Positions 55,471 to 62,060 of a stretch of DNA of 64,000 nt are shown in pieces. The stretch covers positions 1-64,000 of the forward strand of contig JAPPIK010000061.1 of assembly GCA_028820655.1 (NCBI GenBank). The letters are read 5' to 3'. Source of the stretch: Candidatus Poribacteria bacterium. Lineage in GTDB: Bacteria; Poribacteria; WGA-4E; JAJDTR01. The stretch's first letter is position 1, and every line of letters starts with the position of its first letter. The notes under the pieces were generated by a model. That model was not told where the DNA came from and made no database searches. It worked only from the letters and a program-made list of their open reading frames with translations. The position numbers were made by a program, and so were the translations under genes.

Positions 55471-58400
55471 TCACTGCCCGGACGTGCCCGGAGACCATTC
55501 TTGAATGAGGTCAGGTGGAATGTCATCAATGAACCTCGATGATGTACTTTCCCCTCCTTTGTGACGATTAACCACTGAACTCAGGTAAAGCCTTTCCTTA
55601 GCACGCGTCACACCAACATAGAAAAGTCGACGTTCCTCTTCAATCTCCATCGGCTGGGTTAAACCCCTCATTGGAAACGATCCCTCTTCCATGTCCGTCA
55701 TGATGATGGTTCGAAACTCCGTACCCTTCGCCACGTGCATTGTCATCAAGGTAATCTTTTTCGTATCGACCTCTAGTTCATCGGCGCTAGTAATTGACTC
55801 TTGATAATCAAGAAAGGTAGAGATGTCTGCCTTAGGGAGTGCTCGTTGAAACCTCTGAGCTATCTCCATTAAGTCGCCTCGCCTGATATTCCAATCTTCA
55901 TCCTCGGCCGAATATGGCTGCGCCTCCCGGCGTAGAGCTTGAAGTAACACCCTATAATCGTCTGCCTCACCCGATTCGAGAGTGGCAAGTAGCCATTCCA
56001 GATTCGGATTATGCGTTCGCATATGGCGTGCGGCAGCTTGGAGAAACGCTCGTGTCTGTCCCAAGGGCTGTTCGCCGTCCAATTGGATTTTGGATACTTC
56101 GGCGTGTTTTCCCTTCCGTGCATTTGCCAAAATTCCAAGGCCTACTAATGGCAAGAGCTCTTCCAACGAGTGCATCTCGCGCTGGCGACGAGTGGCTCCA
56201 ATTAGCTCTTCAAACACCTTGTGGTTTATTTCTACGTCCTCCATCGCTTGGTGCAAGCGCCCGTACGAGATTTGAAACTTCTCAGCAAGTGCTTCAAGTG
56301 TACGACTTTCACGCGGATAAATCCGCCGGGCGGTTAGCAAGGTATCGTAGCAAGCATTCTTTAAATCGGTATTGAGGTATCGCGAGAGATCACGCTCCAA
56401 GATGGGATTGTCAAACTTGATCACATTGTGACCAACGAGGATGCTATCTTGGATGAAATCAAGAAATTCCGGCAATACGGATTCGATGGAAGGCTCACCC
56501 TTGACTTTTTCATCGCTAATGCCGTGAACATCAAAACTTGACTTCGGAATAGCGTACGGTGGTTTTACCAACCGATGATAAGTTTCAACAGCTTCTCCAG
56601 TGGCGTTCAGGCGCTTTGCAGCAATTTCGACAATCTCCGCGTCGTTGGAATCACGACCGGCGGTCTCAAGATCGTAGACAACAACATTCGAGTAGTTGGG
56701 CCTTTCAAAGTAGCTCACCACTCGCTGGCATAGTTTCAGTGCGATGATGCTCTTGGCAGTATCTGGACTCTCGCCTGACTCACATCTGTTTCCCAACCTA
56801 ATCACATTAGCAGCGTCGTCTGTCATATCTCCAATGAGAATAACCGGCACGACTGTCGGTGGAAACACCTCACAGTGCCCAATGAAAATGTCTATCTCCG
56901 TTTCAACCTTTTCAGGCGCATTCACCCTTCGTGGTTGCAAAAATTCGAGTTGAACGTCGCAGTTAAGATACGGTTCGATTGTCTGATGTAGAATATGTGC
57001 AGCACAGTGGGCATCAATCCCATGGCTAGAGACAATGCGAATTGGTTTGCCGTGGTTTATCCTCCTACCCAGCGTGTCTGCCGCCATTTGTAGATTGGGA
57101 TCTTCCTGAACCATTTCAATTGCCTGAATCTCTTTTTCGCGAAATGCCGAACGGCGGCATTCAAGCAACTCAAATAACTTCGACATGATTTTACTAATCG
57201 TGGCACCCTCTATAGTGCTGGCAAATTTGTCAATATCTTCGAAAAACCGCCGCACATTTCGACGGGTCAAAGGCCCAGCGGCATGCGGATAATCCTCAAT
57301 TCGCCTGAGCATGTCAACCAGAGTCAGTCTGTGGCGGCGAGCGATTCGTTTCAGTTGTGCAAGTGTTAAATCGTCAATCGATTCTTTGGGGAACTTGAGT
57401 GTTCGAGCAAGATCGTTCGATCCCCACTTGTGAAGCACCCTTAAGTAGGATAAGACATCCTGCGCTGGAGTTTTCTGTAATATGTGTTCTCCCCCAGCAC
57501 GCTGAAACGGCACCCCTTCGTGATGCAGTCGATACGCGAGCCCATCCGCATGCCGATGTATACGGTAAAGGATGCCGATGTCGCCTGGCGCGTAACCACG
57601 CTCATTTACAAGGTTGCGGACAAGCCTGACAATGTAATTTGCCTCCTCGTTCGCACCATTGAAGGTACAGTGAACAATGGCATGTCCGTCTTCCTGATGC
57701 GATTTTAGCGAATCATTACTGCTATCCACATTCTTGGAAATTACCCTATCTGCCGCCCTTAGAATCTTCTTGCTACAACGATACTGGTCTTCTAGTTTGA
57801 TTATGGTCGGGTCAAAGTCGTTCTGAAACCTGCCAATGTATTCTGGGCTTGAACCTCGCCAGCCATAAATTGATTGGTTCTTGTCGGCAACCACCATCAG
57901 GTTCCGTGGAGACGCAGGGCGCAGCAGCGTCAATAGTGCATACTGCGCAGCATTAACATCCTGATACTCATCGACAAGAACATAGCGGAGTTCGTGATGA
58001 GACTTGGCCTGGACAGCAGGCACCTTGTGAAGCAACTCAGCTGTCTTGCAGATAAGATCGTCAAAGTCTAGCGCCTGATGTGTGTCGAGTTTGTCCTGAT
58101 AGGCTTTAATTATGGCCGCTTCTTCTTGGCGGAAGGACGGAGCACCTGTCGCTTTGCTACCACTCGCATGAATCCCTTGCATTTCGACAGATGAAGCAAG
58201 TACATCGGCTACTATTATTTTGTGCTTTTCGACGATTTCCCGTAAGCGCCTAGGGGGATAGTCCCGTCGACTGAGTTTCAAATCTCTCCGACACTCAATC
58301 AGAACTTCCTCCTGTGTTTCCGCCTCGAACACTACAAAGTATTTGCTCAAACCTATCTCCGAGGCGTGTTCTCGGAGAAAGTCGCTACAGAAGGCGTGAA

Positions 58401-58662
58401 ACGTGTGAATTCGTACGTCGAGCCCCAGCTTTGTCCCGAGTAATGCCTTGGTTCTATCGCGCATTTCCTCCATGGCTTTTCTAGTAAAAGTAATTGCGAG
58501 AATCTGCTCTGGAGCGATCCCGTGATTTTGGATGAGGTAGGCGATTCTGTGTGTGATAATCTTCGTCTTGCCTGTGCCTGGGCCTGCGTTGACCAAAATC
58601 GGTCCCTCTGTACGGGTTACAGCCTGTTTCTGTTTCTCATCAAGTCGCTGAAGGATTTTCAT
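55471..58662 (-). CDS. UvrD-type helicase with nested DEDDh exonuclease, copy 1
   Basis: A 1063-residue superfamily 1 DNA helicase. Helicase motifs: Walker A NAGPGTGKT (about residues 25-33), ITFTRKAMEEM, DEYQD (231-235), QSIYGWRGS, QYRCSKKI, then, after a long insert, LMTMHVAKGTEF (about 972) and the motif VI arginine in YVGVTRAKERLYLS (about 1015-1028). The insert contains a complete DnaQ-like 3'-5' exonuclease (about 660-820): YDLET (D664, E666), LVGHNVIKFDN (D751) and H804-x4-D809. So a proofreading-type nuclease is nested in domain 2 of a UvrD helicase. A paralogue of the same length lies directly upstream. Repair or defence roles are possible. Confidence 0.9.
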   Translation of the reverse strand: MKILQRLDEKQKQAVTRTEGPILVNAGPGTGKTKIITHRIAYLIQNHGIAPEQILAITFTRKAMEEMRDRTKALLGTKLGLDVRIHTFHAFCSDFLREHASEIGLSKYFVVFEAETQEEVLIECRRDLKLSRRDYPPRRLREIVEKHKIIVADVLASSVEMQGIHASGSKATGAPSFRQEEAAIIKAYQDKLDTHQALDFDDLICKTAELLHKVPAVQAKSHHELRYVLVDEYQDVNAAQYALLTLLRPASPRNLMVVADKNQSIYGWRGSSPEYIGRFQNDFDPTIIKLEDQYRCSKKILRAADRVISKNVDSSNDSLKSHQEDGHAIVHCTFNGANEEANYIVRLVRNLVNERGYAPGDIGILYRIHRHADGLAYRLHHEGVPFQRAGGEHILQKTPAQDVLSYLRVLHKWGSNDLARTLKFPKESIDDLTLAQLKRIARRHRLTLVDMLRRIEDYPHAAGPLTRRNVRRFFEDIDKFASTIEGATISKIMSKLFELLECRRSAFREKEIQAIEMVQEDPNLQMAADTLGRRINHGKPIRIVSSHGIDAHCAAHILHQTIEPYLNCDVQLEFLQPRRVNAPEKVETEIDIFIGHCEVFPPTVVPVILIGDMTDDAANVIRLGNRCESGESPDTAKSIIALKLCQRVVSYFERPNYSNVVVYDLETAGRDSNDAEIVEIAAKRLNATGEAVETYHRLVKPPYAIPKSSFDVHGISDEKVKGEPSIESVLPEFLDFIQDSILVGHNVIKFDNPILERDLSRYLNTDLKNACYDTLLTARRIYPRESRTLEALAEKFQISYGRLHQAMEDVEINHKVFEELIGATRRQREMHSLEELLPLVGLGILANARKGKHAEVSKIQLDGEQPLGQTRAFLQAAARHMRTHNPNLEWLLATLESGEADDYRVLLQALRREAQPYSAEDEDWNIRRGDLMEIAQRFQRALPKADISTFLDYQESITSADELEVDTKKITLMTMHVAKGTEFRTIIMTDMEEGSFPMRGLTQPMEIEEERRLFYVGVTRAKERLYLSSVVNRHKGGESTSSRFIDDIPPDLIQEWSPGTSGQ

Positions 58663-58868
58663 TTTTTTTGAAACTCACTATAGTGGTCGATTTCTTCCGT
58701 GAGGCCAATCGAAGTGTCATTATATCACCACGCTTGACACTGGAAATTGCTGACACAGAGAGGCTTATAACGTAGGTTATTAGGCCGACTTCGTGCAAAA
58801 CTGCGGGGGATGAGGTAAAATCAGTCGAAAATACAATATCATTCGATTAAGGATTAAATGGCTACAAT

Positions 58869-61800
58869 TCAACGCCTAGAACGGCGCGGCGACCACCGAT
58901 TGATAAGATTGGATGGGATTTCGCGGGAGAACATGGAGGGGGCGCGTTCCATATCGCCGCGCCGACGGACAACAGAGGTCAAATAGAGCCGATCTTTGGC
59001 GCGCGTCATGCCGACATAGAACAACCGACGTTCTTCCTCTAGTTCCGCCAACGGCTGATCTTGGCGCCTTATAGGGAAGGTTCCCTCCTCCATGCCCGTA
59101 ACGATGACTACCCGATACTCTGTCCCCTTTGCCGCGTGGAGAGTCATCAACGTAACCTTATCGGTCTCCACCTCCGTTTCGTCAGCGCTGTTAATTAACT
59201 TTTGATAATCGAGGAAACTGGAAATATCCTTCACACGGTTATTCTTCTCAAAATGCAGCATGCCGTTCATGAATCTGGCCCGTCTATCTTCCCAATCCGT
59301 ATCCTCCGGGAATCTCGGGAGGGTAGTTTTTCGAAGTGTTTGAATGAATTCCCCAAATCTCTCTATTGCTGTAGATCCCATCATGGAAGACAGCAGCATG
59401 TCGGTCTCATGACGATGGTGTTGTACGTATCGTGCAGACACCTGAAGGAGTGCTTCTACGGCTTCCGACGATTGTTGAGCGTTTAAGGTGTCCTCGTAGC
59501 AGTACGATTCCGCTCGCTCCATCCGACTTGCAAGAATTCCAATTCCCACATACGGCAGAAACTCCGTCAGTGAGCGCACCTCACGATGGTGAAGATTGAC
59601 TTTAATTAGCTCCTCAAACACACGGTGATTCACCTGCACGTCCTCAATCGCTCGATGCATGGTATCGTGTTCAATACCAAACTTCTCAGACAGCGCCCCG
59701 AGATTACAGGTTTCACGTGGAAAGAGCCGTTGAGCAGTCACCAAGGTATCGTAGCATGGATTTGACAAACCTATATCCAACCGCCTGAGGTCGCGCTCTA
59801 ACACCATATTGTCAAACTCAATTACATTATGCCCGACGAGAATGCGGTCTTGGATAAAACTGAGAAAACCCGGCAGAACCGCTTCAATACTGGGCGCGTC
59901 TTTGACCGTTTCGTTGTCAATACCGTGAATGCGGGTGCTAGATGCTGGGATTGCTCGGGATGGTTTGACCAATTGATGGTATCGATCAAGTTCGCTCCCT
60001 ACAATGCTCAGCCGCTTTGCGGCTATTTCGACAATTTCCGCCCGCTTCGGATTGTAGTCGGTGGTTTCGAGGTCGTAGACAATCATGTCGGCGAAATTCG
60101 GGGTTTCAAAGTAGCCGACGACTCGCTGACATAGCTTCAGGGCGATGACACTCTTGGAAATCTCCAGATTTCTACTCGGTTCTTCGTTCCGTCCCAACTG
60201 AATTACGTTTGCGCCATCGTCCGGCTCGGATGCGATGAGGATTATTGTCCCAGTTATCTCGGGCAAAGCCGAAAAACGACCTATCAATACATTTATGCTA
60301 TCCTGATCGAGTTCAGGTATTTCGTCCTCCAAGGGAAAGAAGTCAATATGCACCTCGCAGTCGAGATAGCGCTTGATGGTCTGGTGCACGATATGTGCGG
60401 CACAGCGGGTATCAATCTCGTCTGTAGACGCTATTCTCACCGACTCTCCGCGCTGTACCGCACTATACAGAGCGTCCGCAGCCATCTTAAGGTACGGGAT
60501 TTCTTCCGACTCTTCAATTTTATGAATCTCTTCATCACGATAAGGTGAACGGCGGCGTTCAAGCAGATTAAACAATTTCGACACTATCCTGCCAATTTTT
60601 TCATCTTTGATCTCCTCGGCAAAGGCATCAGTTTCTTCGAGGAACTGTCGGACATTTCGACGAGTGAGAGGTCCAACATCGTCCGAATAGTTTTCAATCT
60701 CTTTTAGCAGTTCAACTAGCGTCAGGTTTTCACGCTGCGCCAGCCATTTCAGCCGGGCAAGGGTCAGGTCGTCGATTAGCGATTGGGGAAAATTGAGCGC
60801 TCGTTCAAGATCGCGAGGAAAGCGCCACTGAACATAACTCAGATACGACGAAACATCCTGTGCATGCGTCTCTTGGAACGAATTCTCTCGTCCGACACGC
60901 TGGAATTGAACTCCCTCGAAATATAGCCGATCCGCCAGTGCCTCCGCGAGTTGATGCGTCCGGTAAAAAATGGCGATATCGCCATAAGAGTAGTGCCGTT
61001 CATTGACGAGTTGTCGGATGAGTTTGGCAATGTGTGATGCCTCCTCGTCCGGATTGTTTAACGTATAGTGGAAAAGGGTGTGCCCAGCTCCCCGGTGGGT
61101 CTTCAGTGTACTCCATGCTTGGCGGGTATTCTTGGCAATCACTGTCTGTGCCGCACGCAGAATCTTCTCGGTACAACGATAGTGCTCCTCCAATTCCACG
61201 ACGGTCGGTTGGAAATCGGTTCTAAAGTTTTCAATGAATTCCGGCATTGAGCCGCGCCAGCTATAAATCGACTGATTTTCATCGGCAACCACCATTAAGT
61301 TCCGTTCGGGCACGCGGCACAGCAGTCTTAAGAGTTCATACTGGGCGGCATTGATGTCCTGATATTCATCAACAAGGATATAACGGATGTCTAGATGGAA
61401 TTTTGCACGGACGGCGGGTGATTGCTCAAGCACTTCTACAGTCTTGTATAGCAGTTCGTCGAAGTCGAGGGCGGAATGTGCGGCGAGTTTGCTCTGATAC
61501 GCTTTGATAAGATTGACGATGTTCTGGATTGCCGTCGGGTCGTCAATCACATCGCCGTCTCTTGTGCGAATCTCGGGCATTTCACCGACCGCAGCGAGCG
61601 GATCCTCCAACCTTACTTTGTACGCTCCGATGATGTCGCGCATTCGCCACGGCGGGTAGTCGAGTCGATTCAGTTTCAACTCTCGCAGGCATTCAACCAG
61701 AACTTCCTCCTGTGTCTCCTGATCGAATATCGTAAAGTTCTTACTCAACCCGATTTCCGGTGCGTGTTCTCGCAGCAAGCCGACACAAAAGGCGTGGAAG

Positions 61801-62060
61801 GTGTGGATCTTAACGTCCAGTCCTTGGGTTGTGCCGAGCAAATCCTTGATTCGGTCGAGCATTTCTTGCGCGGCTTTATTCGTAAAGGTGACCGCGAGGA
61901 TTTGCTCTGGTGGAACGCCGTGTTCGTGAATGAGGTGGGCGATTCTGTGCGTGATGACCATTGTCTTGCCCGTGCCCGGACCCGCGACGACCAAGACAGC
62001 GCCGTCTTTATGGGTCACCGCCTGCGCCTGTTTTTCATTGAGTTCCTGGTGGAAGTCCAT
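58869..62060 (-). CDS. UvrD-type helicase with nested DEDDh exonuclease, copy 2
   Basis: Tandem paralogue of the preceding helicase, exactly the same length (1063 residues) and colinear without large gaps; the N-terminal 280 residues align position by position. Motifs: VAGPGTGKTMVITHRI, AVTFTNKAAQEM, DEYQD, QSIYSWRGS, HYRCTEKI, LMTLHAAKGTEY and YVGMTRAKDRLYLT. The nested exonuclease has YDLETTDYN, LVGHNVIEFDN and H-x4-D in MHRAIEDVQVNH, so the catalytic acids are intact. 206 bases separate the two genes. Both read leftward. The high divergence between the copies shows that the duplication is old and both have been kept under selection. Confidence 0.9.
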   Translation of the reverse strand: MDFHQELNEKQAQAVTHKDGAVLVVAGPGTGKTMVITHRIAHLIHEHGVPPEQILAVTFTNKAAQEMLDRIKDLLGTTQGLDVKIHTFHAFCVGLLREHAPEIGLSKNFTIFDQETQEEVLVECLRELKLNRLDYPPWRMRDIIGAYKVRLEDPLAAVGEMPEIRTRDGDVIDDPTAIQNIVNLIKAYQSKLAAHSALDFDELLYKTVEVLEQSPAVRAKFHLDIRYILVDEYQDINAAQYELLRLLCRVPERNLMVVADENQSIYSWRGSMPEFIENFRTDFQPTVVELEEHYRCTEKILRAAQTVIAKNTRQAWSTLKTHRGAGHTLFHYTLNNPDEEASHIAKLIRQLVNERHYSYGDIAIFYRTHQLAEALADRLYFEGVQFQRVGRENSFQETHAQDVSSYLSYVQWRFPRDLERALNFPQSLIDDLTLARLKWLAQRENLTLVELLKEIENYSDDVGPLTRRNVRQFLEETDAFAEEIKDEKIGRIVSKLFNLLERRRSPYRDEEIHKIEESEEIPYLKMAADALYSAVQRGESVRIASTDEIDTRCAAHIVHQTIKRYLDCEVHIDFFPLEDEIPELDQDSINVLIGRFSALPEITGTIILIASEPDDGANVIQLGRNEEPSRNLEISKSVIALKLCQRVVGYFETPNFADMIVYDLETTDYNPKRAEIVEIAAKRLSIVGSELDRYHQLVKPSRAIPASSTRIHGIDNETVKDAPSIEAVLPGFLSFIQDRILVGHNVIEFDNMVLERDLRRLDIGLSNPCYDTLVTAQRLFPRETCNLGALSEKFGIEHDTMHRAIEDVQVNHRVFEELIKVNLHHREVRSLTEFLPYVGIGILASRMERAESYCYEDTLNAQQSSEAVEALLQVSARYVQHHRHETDMLLSSMMGSTAIERFGEFIQTLRKTTLPRFPEDTDWEDRRARFMNGMLHFEKNNRVKDISSFLDYQKLINSADETEVETDKVTLMTLHAAKGTEYRVVIVTGMEEGTFPIRRQDQPLAELEEERRLFYVGMTRAKDRLYLTSVVRRRGDMERAPSMFSREIPSNLINRWSPRRSRR

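Follow-up and report, generated by a model that had tools for sequence, protein, structure and literature searches.

Organization of the locus

The window analysed here is a 64,000-nucleotide stretch of DNA from a Candidatus Poribacteria bacterium (contig JAPPIK010000061.1, positions 1 to 64,000), and it carries on its minus strand two consecutive open reading frames (ORFs), at 58869-62060 (copy 2) and 55471-58662 (copy 1), each encoding a UvrD-type helicase of 1063 amino acids. In both proteins, the subdomain 2B arm of the motor holds a RecJ-type domain with degenerate catalytic motifs (a pseudo-RecJ), which in turn holds a DEDDh exonuclease, an architecture that is stated here with high confidence. 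An original prediction, made from the nucleotide letters alone, had pointed to tandem UvrD-type ORFs of 1063 residues each, and both are real and lie where it placed them. The two proteins are 53% identical over their full length, with 4 gap positions. Their equal length, to which the prediction drew attention, is genuine but coincidental, the result of compensating indels, since the copies in a same-genus genome, that of the sister species (Candidatus Poribacteria JAJDTR01), are 1064 and 1060 amino acids long. The motor motifs, the insert site, the RecJ fold with its degenerate motif, the DEDDh residues, the distribution and the duplication history were all computed. The features of the locus are as follows.

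58869-62060, minus strand: copy 2, the UvrD/PcrA-type helicase with nested module that evolves slowly and is ancestral-like, 1063 amino acids (stop included in the coordinates; ORF, Pfam, trees)
60690-62060, minus strand: copy 2, first part of the helicase, residues 1-457, aligning to PcrA (1pjr) 11-450
60090-60566, minus strand: copy 2, first half of the degenerate RecJ-type DHH domain, residues 499-657 (hhalign, AlphaFold2, Foldseek)
59616-60083, minus strand: copy 2, nested 3'-5' exonuclease domain of the DEDDh (RNase_T) type, residues 660-815 (D663, E665, D750, H802, D807)
59226-59609, minus strand: copy 2, RecJ-like second half, residues 818-945, a colinear continuation in which FLPYVGIGILAS aligns to RecJ LDLVALGTVADVVPL
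58872-59225, minus strand: copy 2, last part of the helicase with motifs V and VI, residues 946-1063 (residues 929-1060 align to PcrA 514-653)
58663-58868, no strand: 206-bp gap between the copies, 88 bp of it 68% identical to DNA upstream of the same-genus copy-1 orthologue
55471-58662, minus strand: copy 1, a fast-evolving tandem paralogue, 1063 amino acids, with every ATPase and DEDDh residue retained
56689-57168, minus strand: copy 1, first half of the degenerate RecJ-type DHH domain, residues 499-658, SSHGIDAHCAAHI (alignment, family profile)
56212-56682, minus strand: copy 1, nested exonuclease of the DEDDh type, residues 661-817 (D664, E666, D751, H804, D809)

The helicase motor and the nested exonuclease

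Both copies match the Pfam family UvrD-helicase at residues ~7-284 and UvrD_C in two parts spread across ~288-1029, with RNase_T nested between. In copy 2, residues 1-457 supply 1A, 1B and the starts of 2A and 2B, with a Walker A sequence GPGTGKT, a DEYQD box and motifs III and IV. With Walker A and B, motifs III-VI, and UvrD_N and UvrD_C domains all in place, the motor is, as predicted from these signatures, a superfamily 1A (SF1A) helicase of the PcrA/UvrD/Rep type. Its key ATPase residues are essentially invariant across 51 family sequences, the exceptions being gaps in one partial sequence and one substitution outside the phylum. The best curated model for both copies is PcrA (462 and 482 bits), with the best stretch confined to the motor, up to residue ~500, and neither copy reaches the NCBIfam cut-off of 911 bits for the PcrA equivalog.

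In the alignment to 1pjr, copy residues ~457-929 replace PcrA residues 450-514, a segment that we take to lie within subdomain 2B, such that an insert of ~470 residues stands where PcrA has ~64. RNase_T is matched at E ~4e-30 in both copies and five of five DEDDh residues are present in each, placing both in the DEDDh family. The Pfam match, the five residues and the PcrA alignment therefore agree with the predicted presence of a complete DnaQ-type exonuclease inside the helicase, between motifs IV and V. The insert, however, exceeds the exonuclease, with an additional ~160 amino acids before it and ~130 after it that had escaped the original prediction.

Of the 51 family sequences, 48, across several phyla, retain the full set of five DEDDh residues. 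In the proteins L044 and L045 (from genomes G003 and G006) and L048 (G075), all or most of these residues are gone, and the branches in the family tree are ~1.6 long. In the tree, the DEDDh domains from every nested helicase group together in a single clade (97/89), which suggests a single and ancient origin of the nested arrangement.

A degenerate RecJ domain around the exonuclease

The ~160 residues that precede the DEDDh domain have no credible Pfam family in a Pfam scan, and were therefore compared by profile-profile alignment and fold search. With hhalign, this block matches RecJ of the same phylum at P 3.5e-6, in a register that brings together the RecJ helix and the GDYDxDG motif, whereas neither the reversed profile nor any of 100 shuffles of the columns came near this value and a control block from 2B gave nothing. 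When the DEDDh domain was cut from both sides, the RecJ match extended over 158 columns at P 1.7e-8 (95% probability), with a score of 71 as compared to 25.7 or less in 100 column shuffles. An AlphaFold2 model of residues 499-661 (pLDDT 75, pTM 0.73) searched with Foldseek against the PDB returned RecJ, RecJ-Cdc45 or GAN structures at all of ranks 1-13 (E 2.6e-5). By hmmsearch against PDB sequences, the best match of the block was to Cdc45, and was not significant (E 0.18). For the Poribacteria members, these comparisons amount to a RecJ/DHH fold.

The catalytic DxD..DG and DHH motifs of this fold are absent: GDYDxDG has become xxEID or GID, as in the pre-DEDDh block of copy 2, and there is no DHH triad, nor is DHHA1 matched by Pfam in the family proteins. 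Since the catalytic motifs are gone, the insert resembles a Cdc45-like pseudo-RecJ rather than an active RecJ, a loss of the same kind as that discussed for inactivated archaeal RecJ homologues and Cdc45 (PMC3307487).

Eight genomes, several of which first surfaced as matches to the insert outside the phylum, encode RecJ proteins with a complete DEDDh domain between DHH and DHHA1 (L103, L104, L106, L217-L221; several bacterial families). The Poribacteria insert aligns with three of these proteins across both junctions (P 1.2e-39), with the same succession of DHH, DEDDh and a LDLVALGT segment and with junctions that correspond. The RecJ proteins differ in being free-standing, with the DHH motif present, a DHHA1 domain, mostly an OB domain, and no helicase. 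A common origin of the UvrD-type and RecJ-type nested DEDDh domains is neither shown nor rejected by the tree (approximately unbiased (AU) test, p 0.27). No paper describing a RecJ with a nested DEDDh domain was found in the open-access literature.

Distribution of the family

When 85 Poribacteria genomes were surveyed with a profile of the insert, the nested helicase was found in 76, as one copy in 74. Two copies occur only in genus g1, here and in the sister species, and a single-protein query of genome contigs likewise matched the sister species only. Outside the phylum, four nested UvrD-DEDDh proteins were confirmed among ~300 genomes, and in one small phylum a match is present in three of four genomes. 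A scan of viral contigs gave weak matches at the level of the DEDDh domain, none of them with the nested architecture, and no plasmid record covered 80% of the query by tblastn, the matches listed being UvrD-type helicases and separate DnaQ genes.

The phylum has 79 RNase_T matches (a control search succeeds in 10 of 14 reference genomes). As only two of these fall outside the nested helicase family, the family is, as judged by RNase_T matches, essentially the only DnaQ-type exonuclease of Poribacteria. Proofreading, on the other hand, must not depend on the nested family, because several near-complete genomes have no RNase_T match.

Conservation of the gene neighbours does not extend beyond single families, and metabolic and transport-type genes are among these neighbours. 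This variability, and the kind of genes involved, make the helicase gene look like part of the core genome, with no constant partner, rather than a member of a defence island.

Duplication history of the tandem pair

Both copies of both species fall in one clade of the tree (100/100), and the tandem pair is very probably a recent duplicate confined to one genus, as judged from the survey and the trees. The copy 2 orthologues are 83% identical and have end branches of 0.11, whereas those of the copy 1 orthologues are ~0.81-0.82 and ~0.63-0.66 in two trees, with copy 1 evolving roughly seven times faster than copy 2 while keeping its catalytic residues. Non-synonymous divergence (dN) is likewise 0.39 between the copy 1 orthologues versus 0.09 between those of copy 2, and synonymous divergence (dS) is 1.8, near saturation, versus 0.87. 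The survival of every catalytic residue argues against simple decay of copy 1.

The pairing of the copy 1 orthologues holds at 97/97 and a topology that groups the window copies with each other is rejected (AU p 3e-5), but long-branch attraction could still affect this pairing. Orthology is also supported by context, since the copy 1 orthologues adjoin the same SDR and Ldh genes and match each other at 68% over 88 bp of upstream DNA. The sister species does not have its copies side by side but on separate contigs, each next to its own SDR gene, and the duplicated unit was thus probably SDR plus helicase. The SDR gene beside the sister-species copy 1 orthologue (L042:4711-5012) is internally deleted, and an intact SDR gene adjoins copy 2.

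That a diverged and retained pair implies distinct roles, as originally proposed, fits the strong asymmetry of divergence, which suggests different roles. As part of the best explanation, copy 2 would keep the ancestral role while copy 1 is diverging.

Relation to AddAB

The pair had also been proposed to form a two-subunit machine similar in logic to AddAB or RecBCD, possibly accompanying loss of these systems. The genome itself encodes, on other contigs, an AddA homologue (UvrD plus PDDEXK_1), which scores 376 bits with TIGR02785 and falls short of the curated cut-off for the equivalog, and an AddB homologue with ADDB_N and PDDEXK_1, and the idea that the pair replaces AddAB fails for this reason. 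Among the 85 genomes, ADDB_N and the nested helicase occur together in 47, the nested helicase only in 29, ADDB_N only in 2 and neither in 7; ADDB_N is a weak model and its absences are uncertain. With the genes so distributed, there is no sign of mutual replacement. The outcome that the original prediction had named as refuting it, intact addAB together with close relatives that lack the pair, is the one observed.

AddAB, RecBCD and AdnAB resemble the nested helicases in joining a UvrD-type motor to a nuclease. They differ in that the nuclease is a C-terminal PD-(D/E)XK domain in an obligate heteromer, while here a DEDDh domain lies within 2B of a protein encoded only once in 74 of the 76 Poribacteria genomes that have it. 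No PD-(D/E)XK nuclease is found by Pfam in either copy, and both score far below the cut-offs of the AddA and RecB models. A heterodimer as the ancestral unit was likewise rejected, given the single-copy state and the genus-level duplication.

Predicted mechanism and alternatives

The polarity, substrate, coupling and pathway described in this section are inferred. UvrD-type motors move 3'-to-5', and their 2B subdomain is autoinhibitory and mediates dimerisation (PMC13238157). Most likely, though with moderate confidence, each protein would be a one-chain 3'-to-5' helicase-exonuclease with a housekeeping function in 3'-end processing. The motor would translocate 3'-to-5', opening the duplex, while the pseudo-RecJ domain would hold single-stranded DNA and position the DEDDh site beside the junction, where it could trim exposed 3' ends such as flaps, misincorporated or blocked ends, and the ends at forks or D-loops. 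Because the module sits in the arm, 2B, by which UvrD-type motors are restrained, engagement of the exonuclease and activation of the motor are probably coupled. The protein would then serve as a single-copy housekeeping enzyme of repair or fork maintenance in Poribacteria, working beside AddAB.

Several results weigh against this reading. The RecJ-like half that follows the DEDDh domain is weak when taken alone (P ~0.004-0.007), though it continues the RecJ order, full-length AlphaFold2 from three sequences reached a pLDDT of 32 only, and the RecJ-like part was not shown in members outside Poribacteria, with 2-3 sequences per group. In addition, the DEDDh residues have been lost in two lineages (G003/G006 and G075) with the motor intact, and the near-complete genomes G004, G017 and G023 are without the gene. 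The exonuclease is thus not essential. Since motor residues are near-invariant whereas the DEDDh residues were lost as a set, the motor appears to be the essential part of the protein, with the nuclease usually but not always needed.

The same losses lend some weight to an unlikely alternative, in which the main role of the nested module is structural or regulatory, its RecJ-like and DEDDh fold taking the place of part of 2B so as to control motor activation or dimerisation, with nuclease activity secondary. The DHH catalytic motif is lost family-wide, both lineages without DEDDh residues keep every ATPase residue, and 2B is the autoinhibitory and dimerisation domain of this helicase class (PMC13238157). 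There is also precedent in the pExoDinG helicases, where a dead DEDDh domain is retained on a helicase (PMC11981726). Against such a role stands the full set of DEDDh residues kept in 48 of the 51 sequences across several phyla, both window copies, and thus the fast one, included.

It is more improbable that, in Poribacteria as a phylum without free DnaQ, the nested DEDDh domain acts in trans to proofread replication or to edit 3' ends in general. That only two RNase_T matches in 85 genomes lie outside the family speaks for such a role, but four genomes of at least 90% completeness (G004, G017, G023 and G075) have no RNase_T match at all, and the sole match of G003 is catalytically dead.

An anti-phage helicase-nuclease, Gabija-like or similar, is very unlikely. 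The GajB models of PADLOC do match the motor, and an Rpn/YhgA-like gene (PF04754; 62178-63305) adjoins copy 2, but the GajB models cover the motor part only, no GajA partner stands among the neighbours as Gabija has it, and nearly all genomes of the phylum have the family, beside metabolic genes that are not conserved as neighbours, with no viral relative of the same architecture in the contig scan. Of the end-processing or defence role originally suggested, 3'-end processing thus remains plausible, while for defence neither PADLOC nor the neighbourhoods gave any supporting context. The Rpn/YhgA-like gene lies directly upstream of copy 2 in the window, and also adjoins copy 2 in the sister species.

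Finally, the least likely reading is a double-motor machine of the AddAB/RecBCD kind that resects double-strand breaks and has the two copies as its subunits. Although they are adjacent, co-oriented and related UvrD-type motors with nucleases, and motors of this family can pair through 2B (PMC13238157), the duplication is genus-level in a family with one copy in nearly all genomes, the sister-species copies stand on separate contigs with an SDR neighbour each, AddA and AddB homologues are encoded in the same genome, and neither copy has a PD-(D/E)XK nuclease.

Comparison with known helicases and nucleases

Fusions of helicases and nucleases are usually end to end, and in eukaryotes Cdc45 is an inactivated RecJ domain that was recruited to a helicase. 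Here, the predicted arrangement is a pseudo-nuclease of the RecJ/Cdc45 kind inside a UvrD-type regulatory arm, itself bearing a DEDDh domain that looks to be working. As a more tentative extension of the one-chain helicase-exonuclease, the protein might be a bacterial counterpart, in logic, to the helicase plus Cdc45, with the inactivated RecJ as a DNA-binding bridge that couples unwinding to the DEDDh site. It would then be a one-chain 3'-end machine holding essentially the phylum's only DnaQ-type exonuclease, with the fast copy of one genus acquiring a new role.

PcrA, UvrD and Rep (PDB 1pjr, 9dci) share with the nested helicases all ATPase and translocation motifs and the 1A/1B/2A/2B order, and differ from them in the far smaller segment in 2B and in the PcrA equivalog cut-off, which the nested proteins fall far under. 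To RecJ, archaeal GAN and Cdc45 (PDB 7bhi, 5x4i, 1ir6), the likeness lies in the DHH fold that the insert shows in its first half and in the register of motif I. Unlike RecJ and GAN, the domain here has lost the catalytic DHH motifs, as in Cdc45, lacks DHHA1 and OB domains, and is embedded in a helicase arm. The nearest described logic is that of ExoDinG and pExoDinG (PMC11981726), helicases that carry a DEDDh exonuclease in active and degenerate forms, but these are superfamily 2 (SF2) helicases of 5'-3' polarity with an N-terminal, non-nested exonuclease. A published description of a UvrD protein with a nested pseudo-RecJ and DEDDh was not found in the open-access literature.

The architecture makes testable both the control of UvrD-type motors by the 2B arm and the recruitment of inactivated RecJ by bacterial helicases, as eukaryotes recruited Cdc45. 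The near-absence of other DnaQ-type exonucleases raises the question of how Poribacteria edit DNA 3' ends, and the slow and fast copies provide a natural test of functional divergence.

Other composite helicases were noted in genome G000. A 1729-amino-acid protein (C18, L058:2187-7376) joins a RecQ-type helicase (~319-667) and a UvrD-type helicase (~1106-1580) in one chain. A second, of 1064 amino acids (C37, L061:3966-7160), carries ribonuclease HI at its N-terminus, ahead of a motor of the helicase IV/UvrD type, and a third, of 1136 amino acids (C41, L111:10-3420), combines a RecB-like nuclease of the TM0106 type with an IGHMBP2-type helicase.

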